Shown piece after piece: positions 43,938 to 64,000 of a stretch of DNA of 64,000 nt. The translations under genes were made by a program, and so were the position numbers. The notes below the pieces were generated by a model. The model was not told where the DNA came from. It saw only the letters and a list, made by a program, of their open reading frames with translations, and did no database searches. This DNA comes from Fodinibius saliphilus (GTDB taxonomy: Bacteria; Bacteroidota; Rhodothermia; Balneolales; Balneolaceae), in NCBI RefSeq assembly GCF_005869845.1, contig NZ_VAWF01000002.1:186001-250000 (forward strand), in the 5' to 3' direction. Within the stretch, counting starts at the first letter, position 1; the number at the start of each line of letters is the position of its first letter.

Positions 43938-45263
43938 ATGTCACAAATGGCTAAGGAGTTATCGACAAAAGAAGTTGTTTCAAAAATTGAAAAAGAAAAC
44001 GTACAACTTATAGATATCCGTCCCATTGCCGCATATAATGGCTGGGCGCTAGAAGGTGAACAAAGAGGGGGGCATATTCCCGGCGCCAAAAGCATTCCCC
44101 TGCAATGGACAGGTTACATGGATTGGGTAGAAGTACTGGAAGAAAAGAATATCACTAAGAATCTTCCTATTATTATTTATGGTTATTCGGGTAACACCGC
44201 CAGTACAATGGCTCATAAAATGAGAGAGTTGGGATATGGCGAATTATTTATCTATAACAGTTTTGTCACTGAGTGGTCAGCTGATGAAGCCCTCTCTCTG
44301 GAACAGCTAGCACGATACCAGCAATTGGTTTATCCTGACTGGGTTAATCAACTTATTAAAGGAAATACACCTCCCAAATATGATAATGATGATTTCGTTA
44401 TCTGTCATAGCCATTATGACAATATCGAAGATTACCATCGCGGGCATATCCCCGGAGCCATCCCCATAGACACCAATAGTCTGGAATCTACAGAAACGTG
44501 GAACCGCCGCTCTCCTGACGAGTTAAAAGAAACTCTTGAAAAGTTGGGTATTCATCATGACACAACAGTTGTACTGTATGGTCGGTTTTCAGCTCCTACT
44601 TTTAATGAAGAAAAGTTCCCGGGCAAAAGTGCCGGTCATCTGGGTGCTCTTCGTTGTGCTGCTATAATGCTGTATGCCGGTGTCAACGATGTGCGCATTC
44701 TTAATGGAGGAATTACCAGCTGGGAAACAAAACAGCTGCCACTATCAACAGAAGCTATTAGCCCCACTCCCATTAATGATTTTGGGGCTGATATACCCGG
44801 TTGCCCTGAAATAATGATAGATCCCCCGGAGGCAAAGGAACTACTGGCTGCCGATGATGGTGACCTAGTCAGCATCCGCAGCTGGGAGGAATTTATCGGT
44901 GAACGGAGCGGTTATCACTATATTAAAAAGAAAGGACGCATCCCCGGAGCTATTTTCGGTAACTGTGGTAGTGATGCCTACCATATGGAAAACTATCGCA
45001 ACTTTGATCATACTATGAGAGAGTTTCAGGAAGTTGAACAAGCATGGAAAGAGGGGGGAATAATAGCCGATAAACATATTGCTTTTTACTGCGGAACAGG
45101 ATGGCGCGGCAGTGAAGCATTCTGGAACGCCTGGCTAATGGGATGGCCTAATGTATCGGTTTATGATGGCGGATGGTACCAATGGTGTAATAATCCCAAT
45201 AATCCTGTTGAAACCGGTATCCCCGAACAAGCACCGAAGTCCCAAAAAACGATGGCTCAATAG
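43938..45263 (+). CDS. Triple-rhodanese-domain sulfurtransferase
   Basis: A 441-aa cytoplasmic protein with three rhodanese domains (about 5-120, 140-270 and 290-430). Only the third has an active-site cysteine: AFYCGTGWRGSE with Cys385. The loops of the first (YGYSGNTAS, 81-89) and second (YGRFSAPTF, 214-222) lack it, so those domains are structural or substrate-binding. Sulfur transfer from thiosulfate or 3-mercaptopyruvate to a thiol acceptor is the family reaction. It stands alone between tonB and a TonB-dependent receptor gene. Confidence 0.9.
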   Translation: MSQMAKELSTKEVVSKIEKENVQLIDIRPIAAYNGWALEGEQRGGHIPGAKSIPLQWTGYMDWVEVLEEKNITKNLPIIIYGYSGNTASTMAHKMRELGYGELFIYNSFVTEWSADEALSLEQLARYQQLVYPDWVNQLIKGNTPPKYDNDDFVICHSHYDNIEDYHRGHIPGAIPIDTNSLESTETWNRRSPDELKETLEKLGIHHDTTVVLYGRFSAPTFNEEKFPGKSAGHLGALRCAAIMLYAGVNDVRILNGGITSWETKQLPLSTEAISPTPINDFGADIPGCPEIMIDPPEAKELLAADDGDLVSIRSWEEFIGERSGYHYIKKKGRIPGAIFGNCGSDAYHMENYRNFDHTMREFQEVEQAWKEGGIIADKHIAFYCGTGWRGSEAFWNAWLMGWPNVSVYDGGWYQWCNNPNNPVETGIPEQAPKSQKTMAQ

Positions 45264-52563: not shown

Positions 52564-52980
52564 TTAAGTAGTATCGGCCCTGTAACTGACGATACGATTC
52601 CAATGAAGGATAACAAACAATACAACTGCACTTAATTCTAATATTCGTCCTACCAATCCAAGTCCCCATGATACAGGGAGGAAGGAATCGGCTATAACAA
52701 TAAAGATCCCCAGATTCAGAGTTACAACCATTATAATAGCTAGTTTGGGATCTCCCCGTTGTGGCTGTTCTAAAAATCGTGGCAGCATCCAGTAGGCTGT
52801 ACCCAGTGTTAGCTGTATAACCCATCCAATAATAACGGCCTCAATATGAATAGGTAACAATATCCAAACAGCAGGATGGATGATGTATGCTTTATTGATA
52901 AGCATTACAGCGCCCATCAACATTCCCATAATGAGGTAGAGCAGAGAAATTCGGATCATCCAACGACTTACACCAGGCAT
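52564..52980 (-). CDS. Half-size NnrS/oxidase-like membrane protein A
   Basis: About 138 aa from ATG 52980, whose A overlaps the previous stop (TAATG), so the upstream ATG at 53049 is unlikely. Four predicted helices. IHIEAVIIGWVIQLTLGTAYWMLPRF carries a His six residues before Gly-Trp, the pattern of the first heme-ligand helix of NnrS and heme-copper oxidase subunit I. The next protein upstream has the matching LFWHMLMLGWITQIIIGVSIWMYPG, so the two are paralogues. Together they may form one heme-binding membrane unit. Function unknown; associated with nitric-oxide stress genes. Confidence 0.7.
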   Translation of the reverse strand: MPGVSRWMIRISLLYLIMGMLMGAVMLINKAYIIHPAVWILLPIHIEAVIIGWVIQLTLGTAYWMLPRFLEQPQRGDPKLAIIMVVTLNLGIFIVIADSFLPVSWGLGLVGRILELSAVVLFVILHWNRIVSYRADTT

Positions 52981-53429
52981 TATGAACTCCTTCTTCGCTG
53001 ACGTTTCCTTTTTTTGCGCTGCGTTTTTTTTGACATTATTCGAGGCCATATCTCAATGAGATAGGTAATCCCTCCCAATACATGCAGGACAGCAGAAATA
53101 ACGATAAGTATATTCCAGAACTCGGCATGCTGCTCGGTCATCATAGGTTCTGCTGCTACTCGTAACGCCATCCCAATATTTAGAAAGATAAAGGTAAACC
53201 AGTTCCATTTCTGGTTCCAAAAACCTTCTTCTTTGTTACGGCCGGGATACATCCATATAGAAACCCCAATAATAATCTGAGTTATCCATCCCAACATAAG
53301 CATATGCCAAAAAAGTGGCATTAAGGCCGGGAATGAAAACTGCTCAATCTCCAGGAATAACCCGGCAAACAGGGATAAAACGAAATAGACCATCCCAGAC
53401 TTAATAAATATTCTACTTATAAAAGGCAT
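52980..53429 (-). CDS. Half-size NnrS/oxidase-like membrane protein B
   Basis: A 149-aa membrane protein with four predicted helices and a basic C-terminal tail (KKTQRKKRKRQRRRSS). LFWHMLMLGWITQIIIGVSIWMYPG is close to the same segment in its neighbour at 52564. Its ATG overlaps the stop of the DUF3565 gene by one base and its stop overlaps the next ATG by one base, so the three are translationally coupled. A heme-binding, electron-transfer or NO-related role is inferred from the His motif and neighbours only. Confidence 0.7.
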   Translation of the reverse strand: MPFISRIFIKSGMVYFVLSLFAGLFLEIEQFSFPALMPLFWHMLMLGWITQIIIGVSIWMYPGRNKEEGFWNQKWNWFTFIFLNIGMALRVAAEPMMTEQHAEFWNILIVISAVLHVLGGITYLIEIWPRIMSKKTQRKKRKRQRRRSS

Positions 53430-53656: not shown

Positions 53657-54118
53657 TTACTGGTTCACTTCTGAAATCCGCTTACGATAGTTAGAGTGGC
53701 AATCTACACACCCTTGCTGCACAATACGGTAATGATTTAATACCTCATCCATCTGTTGTTCAACGGCAGCCTGACGCATCGAATCAGCATGGTGATGTAC
53801 TGTCTTATCAAAAGAAATAAACTGCTTGATCTCTTTACCGAGCACTTTTTTTACCATAGCCTTATCCTCAGGGGTCATTACGGGATGATCGGCAATACCC
53901 TCGCCCCCCTTAGCAATCAAATCATAATTTTCTGTATAGATCCCTTGGTCAACAATCTGCATATCGTGAAGCAATCGCTGCATCATCGGCACCAGTTTCA
54001 TCGTTTCGGGCTGATGCGAGTCATCCTGAAAATAGGACCAACCGATCATTGAAACTGATGAAACAATAATTACAAGTAATACTGCTATGGATTCTCGTGC
54101 AATCATATCAATTGTCAA
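53657..54118 (-). CDS. Membrane-anchored small cytochrome c
   Basis: A 153-aa protein with an N-terminal membrane anchor or signal (about 8-26, SIAVLLVIIVSSVSMIGW), a helical body, and one C-terminal heme-binding motif QGCVDCHSNYRKR (Cys137, Cys140, His141). A C-terminal CxxCH after a four-helix body is the layout of cytochrome c'-type proteins, which bind NO. Several His (HHHADS at 108-113) lie in the helices. It overlaps the haemoglobin gene by 11 bp. An NO-binding or electron-donor role fits but is inferred. Confidence 0.82.
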   Translation of the reverse strand: MTIDMIARESIAVLLVIIVSSVSMIGWSYFQDDSHQPETMKLVPMMQRLLHDMQIVDQGIYTENYDLIAKGGEGIADHPVMTPEDKAMVKKVLGKEIKQFISFDKTVHHHADSMRQAAVEQQMDEVLNHYRIVQQGCVDCHSNYRKRISEVNQ

Positions 54119-54482
54119 ATTTTCCGTCCATTTCCATTCTTACTGAAAATGATGACGCAATTTTCGCCGCCATCTCTTTGGCATAATCGGCTTTTACACC
54201 TTCAAAATGCTCGTCTACTGTCTCCTCAAAAAGATTATGCCAGCGATCAAAATCCATCTTTTCAATAGGCAAGTTCATATGTTGTCGAAAAGGTCGGCCA
54301 TTGTATCGCCGGGTTTGAAACAACATATTCGACCAAAAATCTACCATTTTGGGCAAATGTTTTTCCCAGTCGACCGCCGCGTAATCGTTAAAAACATATC
54401 CCAGGCGCTCATCTTCCTGCACCTTGTCATAAAATGCATGTACCAGCGTCTTTATATCTTCATCTCCTCTAATATCGTGCAT
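54108..54482 (-). CDS. Group III truncated haemoglobin
   Basis: A 124-aa globin of group III (TrHbP/Cgb type). Features: FYDKVQEDERLGYVFNDYA, WEKHLPKMVDFWSNMLF and GRPFRQHMNLPIEKMDFDRW, in which His68 is the likely proximal heme ligand. Group III globins are linked to nitrosative-stress resistance in Campylobacter (Ctb/Cgb). It overlaps the upstream membrane gene by 14 bp and the cytochrome gene downstream by 11 bp, so expression is tightly coupled. Confidence 0.92.
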   Translation of the reverse strand: MHDIRGDEDIKTLVHAFYDKVQEDERLGYVFNDYAAVDWEKHLPKMVDFWSNMLFQTRRYNGRPFRQHMNLPIEKMDFDRWHNLFEETVDEHFEGVKADYAKEMAAKIASSFSVRMEMDGKFDN

Positions 54483-55725
54483 CGGTTCTATTTGTGTTTA
54501 CGTTTCTGAGTGTTATCCATTGTAGTGATACAGCCAATACTGGTAATAAGGCAGCTACGGCAAGGACATAAAAAACCCACACTCCGCTCCATGATGTTGG
54601 CCATAACTGTGTAGGCATTACCAGACTAATCAAAACAGCATATATTGATCCCACAACAGCATAAAAATAGCTTTTCGTTGCCTCTGACTGAACATGCAAA
54701 CTACCTAACATCATCAGCGTAAAGGCCCCGAGTAATAACACGTGCAGGTAGAATATGCGCAGTCCGTGGTCGGCCAACCAAAATGATGACGGTCCTATAG
54801 AAGCTGTTATCTGCATGACGGCTTTTAGCGCGATTAACGAAATGGGCCAGATCCAGATCTGTATTTTATATTTCCACTTTCCCGATTTTACCAGTACATA
54901 GAGAAACAGTACCAATCCCAGTGCAGCAATACCGCCTCCAATCCGTGCCACGGCCAGTAACAGCGGAGATAATAGGGATTCGGAAATACCATAGGGAAAG
55001 GTCAAGGGTGCTCCGATGACTATGCAACCCAACGACCACGTTTCTGGTATTACCCAGTCAGAAGGTTGTATATCCAACTGTATGACCACAATTGCCAGCA
55101 GGGCCAGAACCACCCATCCCTCAGTAAAAGTGGCTAGAAAAAAATGGGTCATTCCTTTCATTAACATAAAATTCTCGGGGGCAAGTGCTTGCACTACGGC
55201 TACACTCCAGGCCCCCAGCGAACATATGAAAAGCATCACCAACGAACCGTCAAACCATGGCTGTGCCGTATCATCTTTTAATTGATCACGGATTTGGTAG
55301 TATCCCCACATGAACATATACCAGCAGAGCATCACCATTCCCGATAAGATTACGGAAAGTGGCAATGTACCCGCCCCAATGGGAACCGGTCGGTATCCAT
55401 AAAGCAGGAAAAAGGGAAAGGATAATACACCAAATATTAGTCCGCCCCATATCCCGTATTTCATCCAGCCTAAAGAAGAAATGCCCGGCTTGAAATTATC
55501 ACAAATATACTTGAGCAAAAGATACAATGGTATAGGCACCGCCCATCCGAAAAACATCAGATGCGAATGGGCATGCCGTATATTTTCCAACGATAGGTCG
55601 AGCGATGATGTAAGCCAACCTATCATCCCCAGGCGATACAGAAATCCCGTGAGGCCTGCTATAATAAAACAGGCCACCGATACCTTCCAAAGGGAATCGA
55701 TCCGGGATCTGATTTTATTTTCCAT
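54469..55725 (-). CDS. 12-helix membrane protein, NnrS/heme-copper-oxidase-like
   Basis: A 418-aa polytopic protein with about 12 helices. RHAHSHLMFFGWAVPIPLYLLLKYI (about 49-74) resembles the heme/metal-ligand helix of NnrS (WHAHEMLFG) and of heme-copper oxidase subunit I. More His are in helices near 190 (GMTHFFLATFTEGW) and 320-335 (DHGLRIFYLHVLLLGAF). NnrS proteins ease nitric-oxide stress in denitrifiers. The protein does not contain the full six-His set of oxidases that I can trace, so catalysis of NO or oxygen reduction is not claimed. It lies 27 bp after the 601-aa gene. Confidence 0.72.
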   Translation of the reverse strand: MENKIRSRIDSLWKVSVACFIIAGLTGFLYRLGMIGWLTSSLDLSLENIRHAHSHLMFFGWAVPIPLYLLLKYICDNFKPGISSLGWMKYGIWGGLIFGVLSFPFFLLYGYRPVPIGAGTLPLSVILSGMVMLCWYMFMWGYYQIRDQLKDDTAQPWFDGSLVMLFICSLGAWSVAVVQALAPENFMLMKGMTHFFLATFTEGWVVLALLAIVVIQLDIQPSDWVIPETWSLGCIVIGAPLTFPYGISESLLSPLLLAVARIGGGIAALGLVLFLYVLVKSGKWKYKIQIWIWPISLIALKAVMQITASIGPSSFWLADHGLRIFYLHVLLLGAFTLMMLGSLHVQSEATKSYFYAVVGSIYAVLISLVMPTQLWPTSWSGVWVFYVLAVAALLPVLAVSLQWITLRNVNTNRTDARY

Positions 55726-55752: not shown

Positions 55753-57558
55753 TTATGCCGGTATAGCTAACTGCTCAAATAAGGTGTTTAAACGTTTTTG
55801 CTGTTTTTCAACAGTAGCCGGAATTGATTCCAGGTTTTCATCTTTATAAGATTCTGACTTTGCAATCTGCAAGCAGTAATCCATTCCATTTTCGAGATTA
55901 TTCTTAAACTTTTTGAGTTTCTTGATGTTTCCCGACGAACCGTCGTGTTGTTCCACAAGCTCCTCAAAGTAATCCACATAAAGAACAATCTCTTTGGCAA
56001 ACATATGGGGGCGTTCGGAAGGAACCAAAGATTCACTTCTGCCATAAATATGATCTACCATCTCACGGAGACTATACTCCCCGTCGAACCACGCAATATT
56101 AGGGCCCGGGCAGATCGCCTGCGGAGCACGATGCTCGGCTAAAATACCCAAATCAATTAGCGCGCCGTTGCCCAAGTGGTCACATAAACAAGCTTTTTCC
56201 AGTACCTTTTCCCGTTGTTTCTCTTTTTCTTTTTCCGTCATATCGCTCTGGTTGATATCATCCAGCTTTAACAACTGATACTGATTAGAAGCTGTACAGA
56301 TCGGGTTTTCGGTGAATTCTGTATTAGATTCGAGAAATCCTTTTGGACAGGGTGAACCGGGCTTTCCTTTTTCAATACGCTCTTCGTGATACTGGTGCGA
56401 TCCGGTATTTCGCACGTTATTAAAAGGCACACCCAGCGGTGACACTCCACTCAGATACAGATCTTCTTCGGTAGCATTTTCGAGCAGTTCACGTGTGGGT
56501 TTATCTACCGTAGTTGCTTCCGGTACTAACAAGAACGGACTTCCCCATCCAGTTGCATCCATACCGAAATCTTCGAGTAATCGGTGGGCTTCTCCACTTA
56601 CTCCAATCCCACCCTGAACTGTCAGGCGTGGTTCTTCAAACTCCCAATCATCAGAAAATCCATCTCCATTCTTCTCATAATACTTCTCAATTAATGGCTT
56701 TACTGCAGAACTTAGCATTTCCCGCTTTTCTCTAAACTCTTTAAGCAACGAAGGCAACAAATAACCATCGGAGGCAAATGCGTGTCCGCCACAGTTCAAA
56801 CCAGACTCAATTCGATATTCAAAAACTTCTAATCCTTTCTTTGCCAAATATTTTCCCTGGATAAGAGCTGATCTGAAATCACTTACCTTTAGGATGATTT
56901 TCTTTTTGATATCTCCCTTTGCATCCCGGTAAAAGTCTTTAAATTCACTCATATAATTATATAAGCGAGGATTAAATCCGGCTGACAGAATAAGACTGGA
57001 TGCGAGCTCACTTTCTGCGTAACCACGCAAAGCAGCATTTGCATCACTAAATTCGCCACTCATTGGGGTTCCATCCTTCTCGTAGTTAAGCCCATCAACC
57101 TTGGCCATAATATTCACATCAATAGAACCAGGCTTCATGAGTTGAGAGAGCTTACAGGAAATCTTGTCGCGAAGTGTACCTTCCTCGGTTTCCATGAGTT
57201 TATTGTACATGCCCTTTAACTCACTGGTATCGGGCAACAGGTCAAAATACTTGGCCTTTTCATTATCCTCAAAAAAAGGTTGAGACTTAATAGCTTCGAA
57301 TTGATTCTGTACCAACTTTTGAGCCAGGTTTAAATACGCTGTTATTCGTTGTGCACGACCATCTTCTGCACTGCGCGGAATGTTATTATATGGCAGCTCA
57401 AACTTTTTACAGTAATGCTTTCGAATTCGCTCAACAAGCAGATCATCTACAATTGAGATTACTGAATCGATACCGTACGGACCTACCCGTATGGGAGAAT
57501 CAATAGAGTGCCCTGTTCCCATAACCGGGATTGAAAATGTATGTGAAGAGTTTGACAT
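55753..57558 (-). CDS. 601-aa Cys-rich protein, NMO/PfaD-like FMN barrel candidate
   Basis: A 601-aa soluble protein. I know of similar unnamed proteins beginning with a PVMG-x-IDSPIRV-type stretch, but no function. Two segments look like the FMN-site loops of nitronate monooxygenases and PfaD: SGLNCGGHAFASDGYLLP (253-270, compare EAGGH) and VQGGIGVSGEAHRLL plus DATGWGSPFLLVPEA (314-348, compare AGGI...GADGVxMGTxFL). The N-terminal IPVMGTGHSIDSP (10-22) could be the first barrel strand. Later Cys at 404, 421, 457, 459 and 493 (GSPCPKG, NPICTAS, KACLCDHLG, AICPGPN) could hold an Fe-S cluster. A C-terminal helical region follows. Set in a nitrosative-stress operon, oxidation or reduction of a nitro or nitroso compound is a reasonable guess, not proven. 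Confidence 0.7.
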   Translation of the reverse strand: MSNSSHTFSIPVMGTGHSIDSPIRVGPYGIDSVISIVDDLLVERIRKHYCKKFELPYNNIPRSAEDGRAQRITAYLNLAQKLVQNQFEAIKSQPFFEDNEKAKYFDLLPDTSELKGMYNKLMETEEGTLRDKISCKLSQLMKPGSIDVNIMAKVDGLNYEKDGTPMSGEFSDANAALRGYAESELASSLILSAGFNPRLYNYMSEFKDFYRDAKGDIKKKIILKVSDFRSALIQGKYLAKKGLEVFEYRIESGLNCGGHAFASDGYLLPSLLKEFREKREMLSSAVKPLIEKYYEKNGDGFSDDWEFEEPRLTVQGGIGVSGEAHRLLEDFGMDATGWGSPFLLVPEATTVDKPTRELLENATEEDLYLSGVSPLGVPFNNVRNTGSHQYHEERIEKGKPGSPCPKGFLESNTEFTENPICTASNQYQLLKLDDINQSDMTEKEKEKQREKVLEKACLCDHLGNGALIDLGILAEHRAPQAICPGPNIAWFDGEYSLREMVDHIYGRSESLVPSERPHMFAKEIVLYVDYFEELVEQHDGSSGNIKKLKKFKNNLENGMDYCLQIAKSESYKDENLESIPATVEKQQKRLNTLFEQLAIPA

Positions 57559-57612
57559 AACAAATGTTTTATTATTAAATCGCCTATGTTTTAATAAATT
57601 GACATAAGAAGA

Positions 57613-57635
57613 TAGCCTGCCCTACCGACAGGCTA
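57613..57635 (-). terminator. Hairpin after RIC gene
   Basis: TAGCCTG (57613-57619) pairs with CAGGCTA (57629-57635), loop of 9, 14 bp past the RIC stop codon. On the minus strand it is followed by TCTTCTTATG, a weak T tract, so termination may be partial. Confidence 0.5.
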
Positions 57636-57648
57636 CGATGTATTCGTG

Positions 57649-58368
57649 TTAGTTTAGTCGATTTTCCAGTTCCAATGCTTTAGGAAAAAGTACATTATTT
57701 TCTAAATGCACATGTTTGTGCAAATCATCCTGGAAGCCTTCCAGGTTCTGAAAGAGTACCCTGTAGGTAGCACATGCATCCTGCGGAGGTGTAAAACCAT
57801 TACTCAGCTCTTCTATCTGTGCCATCAAATTACCGGCATCTTCATGCTCGGCTTCCATCATAGCTACTGGATTAGCTGCTGTTTTAAAGTCAGGTTTTTC
57901 AACAGGTTTTCCCTTTTTTTCAGCATTAACCAACTGTTTGATATAAGGGAACAGAATTTCCTCCTCCTTCATCAAATGGCTGAGCATTTCTTCTTTCAGC
58001 GTCAAGAAAGTATCTCGTATCTGTATTACCTCTTCGTGACGCTCACCATGTACACGGGCTACCTTATGAGCGTAAATTTCAATTTCAGATGTTTTAGCCC
58101 GCACAAATTCGTGATGTCGCTCAATGATGTAATCCACAAGCAGGGCAGGGGACCAATCATTATAATTGTGATTCGCGGAATTGACACTGCCTAAAGACAG
58201 CAGTTCTTTTGAGAGTTTATCAAAATCTACCCCTTTCTTCTCACATGCTTCTGAAACAGTTCGTTTTCCACCGCAACAGAAATCCAGTCCAAACTTTTTG
58301 AAAATTCCGGCCGTTCTATAGTCGTCGGCTACAATTTCTCCTATTGTTTGTCCATTTAACTTTTCCAT
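57649..58368 (-). CDS. RIC/ScdA/YtfE di-iron Fe-S cluster repair protein
   Basis: A 239-aa repair-of-iron-centres protein. The N-terminal ScdA domain (1-60) has GLDFCCGGKRTVSEACEKKGVD with Cys31 and Cys32. The hemerythrin-like domain (about 78-235) supplies di-iron ligands in IIERHHEFVRAK, HEEVIQI, HLMKEEEILFPYI, EAEHEDAGNLMAQIEELS and HVHLENNVLFPKALELE. RIC proteins repair Fe-S clusters damaged by NO or peroxide and are typical members of NO-response regulons. It sits between ctaA and the 601-aa gene, with its own 79-bp upstream gap. Confidence 0.94.
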   Translation of the reverse strand: MEKLNGQTIGEIVADDYRTAGIFKKFGLDFCCGGKRTVSEACEKKGVDFDKLSKELLSLGSVNSANHNYNDWSPALLVDYIIERHHEFVRAKTSEIEIYAHKVARVHGERHEEVIQIRDTFLTLKEEMLSHLMKEEEILFPYIKQLVNAEKKGKPVEKPDFKTAANPVAMMEAEHEDAGNLMAQIEELSNGFTPPQDACATYRVLFQNLEGFQDDLHKHVHLENNVLFPKALELENRLN

Positions 58369-59490: not shown

Positions 59491-62181
59491 TTAACTGCTA
59501 ATCAACTCCGTTCTTCCATTATCATTCTGAATTAGCAGTTCTTCGTCCAGCTGAAGCCGAGCTTGGGCTGCCGCAAGCCGGGCCACCGGCACGCGATAGG
59601 GCGAACAAGATACATAATCAAGTCCCAGGTTATAGCAAAAACGGACGCTCGACGGATCACCACCATGTTCACCACAAATTCCCACCTTAAGCTTTGGCTG
59701 GACCTCACGTCCCTTGTTTGTAGCTAACTCAACTAACCGACCTACGCCTTCCTCATCAAGCGTCTGAAAGGGATCATCTTTCAGGATTCCTTCTTTCATA
59801 TACGCTTCCAGAAATTTACCGGCATCATCACGACTGTATCCATAGGTCATCTGGGTGAGGTCGTTAGTACCAAAAGAAAAGAATTCTGCTTCTTCGGCAA
59901 TCTTATCTGCAACAATTGCAGCACGCGGTATTTCGATCATTGTTCCCACCTTGTAGTCGACCGTTTCATTCTCCAATGCAAATACATCCGCGGCAATATG
60001 ATCAACAACCTCATGCTGGTGAATAAATTCCTCGGCAGTACCGACCAAGGGGATCATAATTTCGGGCATCACCTTTTTTCCGTTTTTTTTGAGATTGACT
60101 GCTGCCTCCAAAATAGCACGTGTCTGCATCTCTGTGATCTCAGGATAGGTAATTCCCAGTCGACATCCGCGATGACCCAGCATCGGGTTAAACTCTTTAA
60201 GTAATCGAATTTTTCGTTTGAGATCTCGAACGCTTATTTGGAGCTCTCCAGCCAAGGCTTTGATCTCCTCTTTATCATCAGGCAGAAACTCGTGCAATGG
60301 CGGATCAAGCAAGCGCACCGTTACCGGCAGACCTTCCATCGCTTCAAACATTTGGATAAAATCCTGCTTCTGGTAAGGCAGTAAAAGCTTCAGAGCTTTT
60401 TCTCGTTCCCCTTTACTTTCAGCCATGATCATTCTTCGCATGGCCTTAATGCGCTCCTCACCGAAGAACATGTGTTCGGTGCGTGCTAACCCAATACCTT
60501 GTGCTCCAAACTTACGTGCACGAAGGGCATCTTCCGGTGTATCAGCATTGGTTCGTACATTCATATCCCGCATGCCATCTACCCATTCCATAAAAGTGTG
60601 GAAATCTTCTCCAAAATCAGGCTCTTCAACCGGCTTTTTCCCTTTTATAACTAGACCTCGAGCCCCGTCAATTGATATCCAATCTCCAGCCTTCACTGTA
60701 ATTTCCCCATTCGTAAATGATTGGGCTTCATAATTTATTACAATATCATCACAACCGGCCACACACGGTTTACCCCATCCTCGGGCAACCACAGCTGCAT
60801 GACTGGTCATACCACCGCGCGAAGTTAAAATTCCTTCGGCTGCCGACATGCCGCCTACATCTTCGGGACTGGTTTCAATGCGAACCAAAATTACAGGATG
60901 ATCCTGTGCATGCTCTTTTTCAGCCTCTTCAGAACTAAACACAACCTTTCCAACAGCGGCCCCGGGTGAGGCCGGTAGTCCCTCACCGATAACCTCCTGT
61001 TCATCCACCTCAGCCTGGCTAAGTTGCGGGTGTAAAAGCTGGTCAAGGTGAGCGGGATTGACCAGGTTCAGTACTGCTCCTTCCTTCTCAATTAAGCCTT
61101 CTTCTACCATATCAACGGCAATTTTAACTGCCGCTGTTCCGGTTCTTTTTCCATTTCTTGTTTGTAGAATAAAGAGTTCGCCCTGCTGAATCGTAAACTC
61201 AATATCCTGCATATCCTGGTAATGCTTTTCGAGCTTTTCGGTCACCTCTAAAAGCTCATCATAGCTTGTCGGCATTACCTGTTTTAGTTTTATTATATTC
61301 TGTGGTGTTCGAATACCGGCTACAACATCTTCACCCTGGGCATTTATTAAGAACTCACCATACAGTCCTTTGGTACCATCGGCGGGATTCCTCGTAAAAC
61401 AGACGCCAGTAGCACAGTTATCTCCCATATTGCCGTATACCATTGCCTGTACATTTACGGCCGTTCCCAAGAGCCCGGTAATACGATTTATTTTACGATA
61501 CGTCTTGGCTCGCTTGCTACTCCACGAGCCAAATACTGCATTAATAGCATAGTGAAGCTGTTCGTTGGGATTTTGTGGAAACATATATCCCGTACTCTTT
61601 CGATATACTGCCTTGTAGCGGTCTACCAGCTCCTTCAACTCTTCAACACCAAGTTCGGTATCTAACTTAACACCTTCTTCACCTTTCAGCTTTTGGATCA
61701 CTTCTTCAAACCGGTCATGCTCAATGCCCATCACTACGCAACCAAACATATCTATAAACCGTCGGTAACAATCATAAGCGAAACGCTCATTATCTGTTTT
61801 ACGAGCCAAACCCTTTACCGACTGATCATTAAGGCCCAGATTTAAAACAGTATCCATCATTCCCGGCATCGATTTAGCCGCTCCTGACCGAACAGAGACC
61901 AACAGGGGATCAGCAGCATCACCAAAGGTTAAATCCATTAATCCTTCAAGGTGGTGAATACTTTGTTGAACCTGCTTTTCAACCCCCTCTTGCCATTCCT
62001 CATTATGTTCGTTGTAGTATTTGCATACCTCTGCTGATATGGTAAAACCGGGAGGGATGGGCAAGCCTATAGAACTCATCTCAGCCAGATTTGCTCCCTT
62101 ACCTCCCAAAACATCTTTCATAGATTTATTACCTTCTGCTACTCCGCCGCCAAATGTATAAACATATTTTTCGGTGCTCAT
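59491..62181 (-). CDS. ppdK: Pyruvate, phosphate dikinase
   Basis: An 896-aa enzyme interconverting pyruvate, ATP and Pi with PEP, AMP and PPi. The N-terminal ATP-grasp (about 1-380: [41 protein letters not shown]) is followed by the swivelling domain with phospho-His461 in [13 protein letters not shown] and a C-terminal PEP/pyruvate barrel ([44 protein letters not shown]). Length is standard and all motifs are intact. It lies between hemN (12-bp gap) and ctaA (2-bp gap), an unusual partner for respiration genes. Confidence 0.96.
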
Positions 62182-62193
62182 AATAATTCCCCT

Positions 62194-63603
62194 TTAGACA
62201 GTTTTTGAAAATGAGCGGTCAGCTTTTGATGTATTCAGATAATAATCAAAACACATCGCTATGTTTCGAAGGAAAAGCCGGCCTTGTTCAGTAATACGTA
62301 TTTCTTCGCTGTTAACTTCTACAAAACCATCGGCTTCTATTGCAGCCAAACGGCTTAAGCTATCACTAAAGTAATCTTCAAAAACCATGCCCCATTTTTC
62401 CTCAATTTCAGCAAAACTGAGCCCCATCTGACACATCAACTGCATAATTACATCTTTTCGGATCTCATCATCATTGCAAAGATGCAATACTTTTGCAACG
62501 GGTAACCCTTCATCATCTAATTGAGAGTAATAAGAACCAAGATCTTTGGTATTCTGCCAATAGTATTCACCTACATTTGATATGCCGGACATACCAAAAG
62601 CATAGAGATCTGCGCCTGCTAATGTACTATATCCCTGGAAGTTTCGCTGCAGAGTCCCGTTATCCATAGCCTGGGTAAGCTCTTCATCTTCCCGCGAAAA
62701 GTGATCCATCCCAATAAAACGATATCCATTTTCGGTAAGGTGCGAAATTCCCAGCTGTAGCATAGAAAGCTTCTGATCCGTTGACGGCATATCATCAACA
62801 TTTAACAGCTTTTGGGCCGGCATCAGGCTTGGGATATGTGCGTAACTATAAACGGCCAATCTATCTGGCTGTAGACTTAGCACATCATCCATAGTCTTGC
62901 GATATGTTTCCAAGGTCTGAAGAGGTAACCCATAGATTAGATCAAAATTAATAGAATCAATTCCCTCGGAACGCAACCACCCGGTCACCTCTTTGGTTTG
63001 CTCAAAGGGCTGTATCCGGTGAATGGCTTCTTGCACCTCTTCATTGGTATCTTGCACGCCCAGCGAGGCTCGGTTACACCCGATCTCTGCCAGTGCTTTA
63101 ATATGCTCACGACTGCAACGCCGTGGATCAATTTCCACCCCAAATTCTGTTTCCTCAGTCACATTAAAACGACTGTGGATACCCGCTCCCAATCGCCGCA
63201 GCTGCTCCGGCTTTAAAAAGGTGGGGGTTCCACCGCCGAAGTGAATTTGAATCACTTCCGAATCAACATGTAATATTTGGGCTATTAGATCCATCTCTTT
63301 TTCCAAATAGTCGAGATAGAGATCACCCCGATCTTGGTCCTTGGTGATTACTTTCGTACATCCACAATACCAACACAGAGAGAAACAAAAGGGGATATGG
63401 AAATAGAGTGAAACAGGGCGCGCCTCACTATTTCTTTCAAGCAGATAATGTTTAAGCCTGTCTTTCTTTTGCCCTGTTACTTCCTGAAACTGTACCGCTG
63501 TTGGATAAGAGGTGTAACGAGGACCTTTTACATTGTATTTTTTGATCAGGTCTAACCCTACTTCGGCAGCAAGACCTTGCGGTTGTTGCTCTTGGGTATC
63601 CAT
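62194..63603 (-). CDS. hemN: Oxygen-independent coproporphyrinogen III oxidase
   Basis: A 469-aa radical-SAM enzyme that decarboxylates coproporphyrinogen III to protoporphyrinogen IX without oxygen. YFHIPFCFSLCWYCGC holds the 4Fe-4S ligands Cys73, Cys77, Cys80 (and Cys82); IQIHFGGGTPTFL and GCNRASLGVQDTNEEVQ complete the core, and HemN C-terminal domain ends the protein. It supplies heme under low oxygen, consistent with cytochrome-rich denitrification genes. It starts two bases after the nosY stop. Confidence 0.95.
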   Translation of the reverse strand: MDTQEQQPQGLAAEVGLDLIKKYNVKGPRYTSYPTAVQFQEVTGQKKDRLKHYLLERNSEARPVSLYFHIPFCFSLCWYCGCTKVITKDQDRGDLYLDYLEKEMDLIAQILHVDSEVIQIHFGGGTPTFLKPEQLRRLGAGIHSRFNVTEETEFGVEIDPRRCSREHIKALAEIGCNRASLGVQDTNEEVQEAIHRIQPFEQTKEVTGWLRSEGIDSINFDLIYGLPLQTLETYRKTMDDVLSLQPDRLAVYSYAHIPSLMPAQKLLNVDDMPSTDQKLSMLQLGISHLTENGYRFIGMDHFSREDEELTQAMDNGTLQRNFQGYSTLAGADLYAFGMSGISNVGEYYWQNTKDLGSYYSQLDDEGLPVAKVLHLCNDDEIRKDVIMQLMCQMGLSFAEIEEKWGMVFEDYFSDSLSRLAAIEADGFVEVNSEEIRITEQGRLFLRNIAMCFDYYLNTSKADRSFSKTV

Positions 63604-63605
63604 AC

Positions 63606-64000
63606 CTAAAAGTCCTTTCTGTTAAACAGTCGTTTACCACTCCAAAGGGGAATGCCCATCCAAAGCCCCAGACAGGCTGCTGCTACTCCAATTCCCATAG
63701 CACTACCAAAGAATCGATTAAACACTGCTCCCGTATATCCCATCAGTGCTGATATATCAAACTCTAGTAAAACAGTAATCCGAGCCAGGTCAATGGGGTT
63801 TAGCATCGTCATCGCCAACATTGGCTCCTCGATGGGATAATCTCCCAACATGAATACGGCCAACAGCACTAAACCATCATAAATAACCGCCAAAAATAAC
63901 CAGCTCACCAGTGCATATCCCAAGCCTTTAATACGGTTATTAAAAAACTTGAGCCCCATCCAGAAACCCAGACCGGTAAACAGCAGCGTTAGCACAATCC
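63606..64000 (-). CDS. nosY: NosY-like ABC permease of nitrous oxide reductase maturation, 3' end
   Basis: The C-terminal 131 residues of a membrane protein; its start lies right of the window. NRIKGLGYALVSWLFLAVIYD, MLNPIDLARITVLLEFDISAL, MGYTGAVFNRFFGSAMGIG and the end LFNRKDF match NosY, the permease that with NosF and NosD serves copper-site assembly in nitrous oxide reductase. Four helices are visible. This implies a nos cluster to the right and ties the whole minus-strand block to denitrification. Confidence 0.85.
   Translation of the reverse strand, partial: IVLTLLFTGLGFWMGLKFFNNRIKGLGYALVSWLFLAVIYDGLVLLAVFMLGDYPIEEPMLAMTMLNPIDLARITVLLEFDISALMGYTGAVFNRFFGSAMGIGVAAACLGLWMGIPLWSGKRLFNRKDF

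Follow-up and report, generated by a model that had tools for sequence, protein, structure and literature searches.

The window analysed here is a 64,000-nucleotide stretch of the Fodinibius saliphilus genome. At positions 55753-57558 of its minus strand is a genuine and strongly conserved gene for a 601-aa protein, taken from the list of open reading frames, modelled with AF2 and found by Foldseek to have FabX as its first-ranked match. The original prediction set this gene between the repair protein RIC and an NnrS-like protein. RIC, the di-iron Fe-S cluster repair protein (57649-58368, minus strand), was confirmed by TIGR03652 with 252 bits, but the 418-aa membrane protein on the other side (54469-55725, minus strand), which is NnrS-like by eye, had no family match in either Pfam or NCBIfam; the only match to NnrS came from a 149-aa ORF at 52980-53429, at 29.0 bits against a cut-off of 28. 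A strong terminator-like hairpin (57612-57636, minus strand) between RIC and the 601-aa gene makes their co-transcription doubtful, and a scan for FNR boxes upstream of the gene's operon returned no site. Also on the minus strand are a truncated bacterial globin (54108-54482; PF01152, 36 bits) and, in the same island upstream of the 601-aa gene, a HemN-like oxygen-independent coproporphyrinogen oxidase named from its sequence (62194-63603) and the C-terminal part of NosY (63606-63995), beyond which the nos cluster (NosF, NosD, NosL, NosZ and a cytochrome c) runs on outside the window. The nosZ gene of this genome (G000:C2:253598-255418) is about 10 kb from the 601-aa gene.

Homologues of the 601-aa protein were found at 80 loci with 53-95% identity, mostly at full length, in the Balneolota, Bacteroidota, Desulfobacterales, Neomarinimicrobiota, Ignavibacteriota, Calditrichota, Nitrospirota and Elusimicrobiota, and they fall into two well-supported clades. 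In a sample of its own phylum the gene is present in 96 of 247 genomes, with carriers grouping by score around either 1000 or 700 bits, and in a Desulfobacterota sample it is present in 10 of 158; a plasmid search found no family member. One genome carries a second, broken copy interrupted by several stop codons (G127:C1:4371170-4372916) in addition to an intact copy elsewhere. Sequence searches of Pfam, NCBIfam and the PDB with the protein and two profiles gave no real match and no covering model; weak hits such as those to DrrA_P4M, CPW_WPC and a PadR regulator were put down to chance. The Pfam nitronate monooxygenase (NMO) model (PF03060) matched none of 35 family members at E 0.1, nor did the NCBIfam PfaD model match the family, and in the literature on NnrS, NMO and nos clusters with hypothetical proteins we found no description of it. 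A protein of some 600 residues that retains more than 55% identity from one phylum to another, and that about 40% of the sampled genomes of its own phylum encode, has yet to receive a family model or an assigned function.

The glycine motifs that had been read as FMN phosphate-binding loops of the NMO/PfaD type lie where they were claimed (residues 251-261, 313-319 and 337-348), and the flavin-site residues are conserved across 120 homologues of 43-95% identity; in FabX the corresponding His, H182, is catalytic and the Glu, E175, contacts FMN (PMC8626469). An N-terminal FMN loop at residues ~22-33 (PIRVGPYGIDSV; 57460-57495, minus strand), with P22, G29, S32 and V33 conserved, is the counterpart of FabX PI-GGMGVGIS. 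The invariant N149-M151 (NIM; 57106-57114, minus strand) corresponds to the FMN-binding N99 of FabX, and hhalign places N149 on the Asn of FabX-like families. The E251-SGLNCGGH-259 loop (56782-56808, minus strand), which continues as far as residue 261 in the motif E251-SGLNCGGHAF-261, holds the presumed catalytic His, the FMN-contacting Glu and an extra Cys, C256, and is invariant in 120/120 homologues. The phosphate loops TVQGGIG (313-319) and GWGSPFLLVPE (337-347; residues 337-348 read GWGSPFLLVPEA) at 56515-56622 of the minus strand form invariant alignment columns and are the counterparts of FabX G220-G221 and Q240-T243. Altogether E251, G257, G258, H259, G316, G317, N149 and S373 are invariant, and little or no variation is seen at the counterparts of FabX N99, E175, G180, H182, G220/221 and S273.

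The barrel motifs are followed by six cysteines (404, 421, 457, 459, 483 and 562) rather than the five first counted; five of them are invariant and C562 is variable. C256, H259, C404, C421, C457, C459 and C483 are present in all 120 homologues, as is the spacing C-x16-C-x31-37-C-x-C-x23/24-C, and with five Cys invariant across this set the motifs are far from chance. C404, C421, C457 and C459, together with the fifth Cys C483, delimit a predicted [4Fe-4S] site at 56108-56349 (minus strand). Within clade 1 H518 and C562 look invariant, but clade 2 shows variation at both (C562 becomes Tyr), and they were therefore dropped as ligands.

The AF2 model predicts a TIM barrel of the NMO/PfaD superfamily with a flavin site, inserted N-terminal helices, a Cys-rich Fe-S subdomain and a C-terminal helical domain (pLDDT 88.7, pTM 0.90), and a model of a clade-2 member about 45% identical reached the same values (pLDDT 88.7, pTM 0.90). 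With both models, FabX of Helicobacter pylori (HP0773; PDB 7e1q, 9lt5) ranked first in Foldseek against the PDB (E about 1e-10, TM 0.62-0.67 on the FabX chain); PfaD and polyketide enoyl reductases came next, and nitronate monooxygenases after them. Profile comparison by hhalign used 68 non-redundant family members as the query and leaned in part on merged bridge families: E was 5e-6 against 420-aa FabX-like proteins of Bacteroidales (which themselves match FabX at E 1e-27), 8e-8 against these merged with a 490-aa family, and 2.7e-10 (probability 96.8) once two true FabX sequences were added, compared with 0.018 for the two true FabX sequences alone. As controls, reversed profiles reached E 0.05-0.5, and shuffling columns in the comparison with the 420-aa family gave 0.03-0.68. 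FabK scored E 0.004, and NMO (E 0.19) is no better than controls. The alignments set H259 on the catalytic His of FabX-type proteins and C404, C421, C457 and C459 on the four Cys (C/C/CxC) of the 420-aa and 490-aa families, which fits the earlier suggestion that the cysteines could hold an Fe-S cluster. The fold match to FabX, its recurrence in an independent clade and the profile comparison agree in supporting the FMN-loop reading, and the 601-aa protein is apparently related to FabX, though distantly.

FabX, an acyl-ACP dehydrogenase-isomerase of the NMO superfamily, carries FMN together with a [4Fe-4S] cluster on C300, C304, C308 and C320 (PMC8626469), so the pairing of FMN with a Cys cluster, for which the original prediction knew no characterised enzyme, does have a precedent. 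The two proteins have in common the FMN loops, the GGH histidine, the Glu, Asn and Ser positions and a Cys-rich C-terminal subdomain, although no significant direct sequence match exists between them. At 601 aa against 363 aa, the protein studied here is longer by about 100 residues at its N-terminus and by a helical domain at its C-terminus, and unlike FabX it has an invariant Cys (C256) beside the predicted FMN. Its cysteines are spaced C-x16-C-x35-C-x-C(-x23-C), whereas those of FabX follow C-x3-C-x3-C-x11-C, and the FabX pattern C-x3-C-x3-C-x(7-11)-C does not occur in it; because its CxC arrangement differs from FabX's own, the FabX ligands C304 and C308 have no counterpart. The 420-aa Bacteroidales and 490-aa Rhodothermota-type FabX-like proteins (Pfam NMO, PF03060) have C...C...CLC and the barrel motifs in common with it, but are shorter, about 25% identical or less, and never found together with it in one genome of the phylum sample. 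The 420-aa protein (L172:967-2223 and 51 other genomes) carries C319, C332, C358, C360, C368 and C371, an Fe-S ligand set unlike that of H. pylori FabX even though FabX is its best PDB match. The 480-500-aa NMO-superfamily protein of Rhodothermota-type and other Bacteroidota (L203:1016-2506, L204, L205, L201, L206 and L207), which matches Pfam NMO only weakly and has C-x19-C-x22-C-x-C after its barrel, is probably a further Fe-S FabX-like family.

Gene context depends on lineage. Among the 46 genomes of Bacteroidota and Balneolota that carry both nosZ and the 601-aa gene, 15 have the two within about 13 kb of each other; these span four families and both clades, against a chance expectation that we put at about 0.3 genomes. 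The islands run cytochrome c-NosZ-NosL-NosD-NosF-NosY-[601-aa gene], with NadA, NadB, NirK, cNorBC, RIC, NrdD/NrdG or HemN nearby. Within families the gene occurs together with RIC in 64 genomes where 53.3 would be expected, a count that none of 20000 permutations reached; its co-occurrence with nosZ is weaker (46 against 40.5, P 0.015). The homologues of these two phyla are thus linked with nitrogen-oxide genes, as the original prediction had anticipated, and the nosZ linkage and islands across both phyla rule out an association confined to one genus. None of the three outcomes that would have told against that prediction was observed: the predicted fold is a TIM barrel of the NMO/PfaD superfamily, the flavin-site residues are conserved, and homologues are located with nosZ and RIC. 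In several Bacteroidota (L213, L214-L215 and L217) NadA and NadB are neighbours of both the 601-aa gene and the nos genes, and NadB is nearby in Desulfobacterales too. NrdD, taken as a marker of anaerobiosis, showed no association with the gene (6 of 96 carriers).

The association with RIC and nosZ was not seen in the Desulfobacterales or the Neomarinimicrobiota. At the Desulfobacterales loci, many of them on short contigs, no nos cluster was present, and the order is instead ACAD-FabG-AcpP-FabF-FabH-[601-aa gene]-PlsC, with a canonical ACP and an acyl-CoA dehydrogenase-like gene at 8 loci. Within 8 kb of the 601-aa gene at 35 loci (again many short contigs) we counted FabF 12 times, FabH 11, AcpP 9 and FabG 9. 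This operon points to ACP-bound fatty acids as substrate. In the Neomarinimicrobiota references tested neither a fatty-acid operon nor nos genes accompanied the gene; there (L045-L053, L060 and L074) it is flanked by a glutamate dehydrogenase-like protein (446 aa) and a 1545-aa acyl-CoA synthetase-like fusion.

A role in detoxifying NO-derived nitro or nitroso compounds by NMO-like chemistry was the function first put forward, and an NMO-superfamily barrel with its His, the within-family excess of RIC and the physical linkage to islands of nosZ, NirK and cNorBC all speak for it. We nevertheless regard it as very unlikely. True nitronate monooxygenases (PF03060; PA1024, CsNMO) have the superfamily fold and GGH motif in common with the 601-aa protein, but they lack a Cys cluster, their Pfam model gave no match at any threshold tried, and they fared worst in the profile comparison, at control level, with the fatty-acid enzymes FabX, PfaD and enoyl reductases ahead of them in structure and profile alike. 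Sulfate reducers carry the gene in a type-II fatty-acid operon with NO genes absent nearby, and NMO chemistry requires oxygen whereas the islands serve anaerobic respiration. The contextual clue was sound, but besides detoxifiers the islands hold oxygen-independent biosynthetic enzymes such as HemN, NrdD and NadAB, which suggests that N2O-respiration islands carry genes for oxygen-independent biosynthesis in addition to reductases.

What the analysis shows is the family and fold of the protein, the residues conserved in it, its gene contexts and the genes it co-occurs with; from these we infer the cofactors, the substrate, the reaction and its direction, the electron acceptor and the physiological role. 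We favour, with moderate confidence, a FabX-like FMN and Fe-S enzyme acting on ACP-bound acyl chains, whose oxygen-independent synthesis of unsaturated fatty acids (UFAs) is carried along with anaerobic N-oxide respiration; the protein probably makes unsaturated membrane fatty acids without oxygen rather than detoxifying NO. The most serious rival is a FabK/PfaD-type enoyl-ACP reductase that would run the reaction backwards and reduce trans-2-enoyl-ACP with electrons from the Fe-S cluster (e.g. via ferredoxin) and not from NAD(P)H. After FabX, the closest structures are those of PfaD and polyketide enoyl reductases, and the Desulfobacterales operon, with FabG, ACP, FabF and FabH, shows no obvious other enoyl reductase besides the acyl-CoA dehydrogenase. 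PfaD (the PUFA synthase enoyl reductase; PDB 4z9r, 6lkc) also has an FMN barrel with an added helical domain at a similar length (about 540 aa), but it binds NAD+ and is encoded with giant PUFA synthases, none of which was seen beside the 601-aa gene, where the contexts are FAS-II or nos islands. Since FabX lies above both PfaD and FabK in fold and profile comparison, and an enoyl reductase is required however the cell grows whereas this gene has a patchy distribution (96/247, and 10/158 in the Desulfobacterota sample), we hold such a reductase to be unlikely.

Rather improbable, too, is another lipid redox step, in which the protein would act as an isomerase alone on enoyl-ACP supplied by FabZ or an acyl-CoA dehydrogenase, or would dehydrogenate acyl-CoA rather than acyl-ACP. 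The acyl-CoA dehydrogenase-like gene of the Desulfobacterales operon could perform the dehydrogenation, and the Neomarinimicrobiota members adjoin an acyl-CoA synthetase-like protein; against this, the predicted Fe-S cluster, along with an FMN site that is strictly conserved, speaks for net electron transfer, and FabX prefers ACP over CoA about 1000-fold (PMC8626469).

For a FabX-like reaction, H259 would remove the alpha-carbon proton of a medium-chain acyl-ACP while FMN takes up the hydride from the beta carbon, and the resulting trans-2-enoyl chain would be isomerized to cis-3 in a bent tunnel and elongated by FabF to an unsaturated fatty acid. From FMN, electrons may pass through the cluster on C404, C421, C457 and C459, for which C483 could serve as an alternate ligand, and on to an acceptor that is not oxygen. 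The gene would move with anaerobic N-oxide respiration in Balneolota and Bacteroidota because their oxygen-dependent desaturases fail without oxygen. Although speculative, it is possible that this is the missing oxygen-independent UFA synthase of denitrifying Bacteroidota and Balneolota and of some sulfate reducers, and that, by way of its rearranged Fe-S site and extra domains, the electrons released when acyl-ACP is dehydrogenated reach the respiratory chain used in anaerobiosis (quinone, ferredoxin or similar) and not oxygen. The FabX/UfaA homologue NGO1024 of Neisseria gonorrhoeae, like the 601-aa protein tied to FAS-II, is also tied to anaerobic growth with nitrite reductase; it is anaerobically induced and reported to be essential for making UFAs anaerobically, by a route whose acceptor is not known.

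The family makes testable how UFAs are made without oxygen by facultative denitrifiers that rely on oxygen-dependent desaturases, and by anaerobes lacking FabA, and likewise the still unknown acceptor of FabX in anaerobic relatives (PMC11300592). Among the fatty acids of Fodinibius species are 16:1 w7c and iso-17:1 w9c, and some of the species are facultatively anaerobic (PMC9909488); two described species showed no anaerobic growth in reported tests, which counts against the proposal. The missing counterparts of FabX C304 and C308, the lack of an FNR-like box upstream and the Neomarinimicrobiota contexts count against it as well. In 18 carrier genomes neither FabA over the cut-off nor a close 420-aa-type FabX-like protein was present. 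A membrane fatty-acid desaturase occurs in 75 of the 96 carriers of the phylum sample, with no within-family association either way, and because most carriers have one its absence does not predict the gene. No genome of that sample combined the 601-aa gene (96 genomes) with the other Fe-S FabX types (61 genomes), a zero overlap that lineage alone could explain, as both sets fall in different families except one.

Two other genes of the window deserve mention. Inside the N-oxide island, a pyruvate phosphate dikinase-like gene (59491-62181) with a heme A synthase-like gene on one side and HemN on the other is kept in several Fodinibius, and the 441-aa protein encoded at 43938-45263 is by appearance a three-domain rhodanese.
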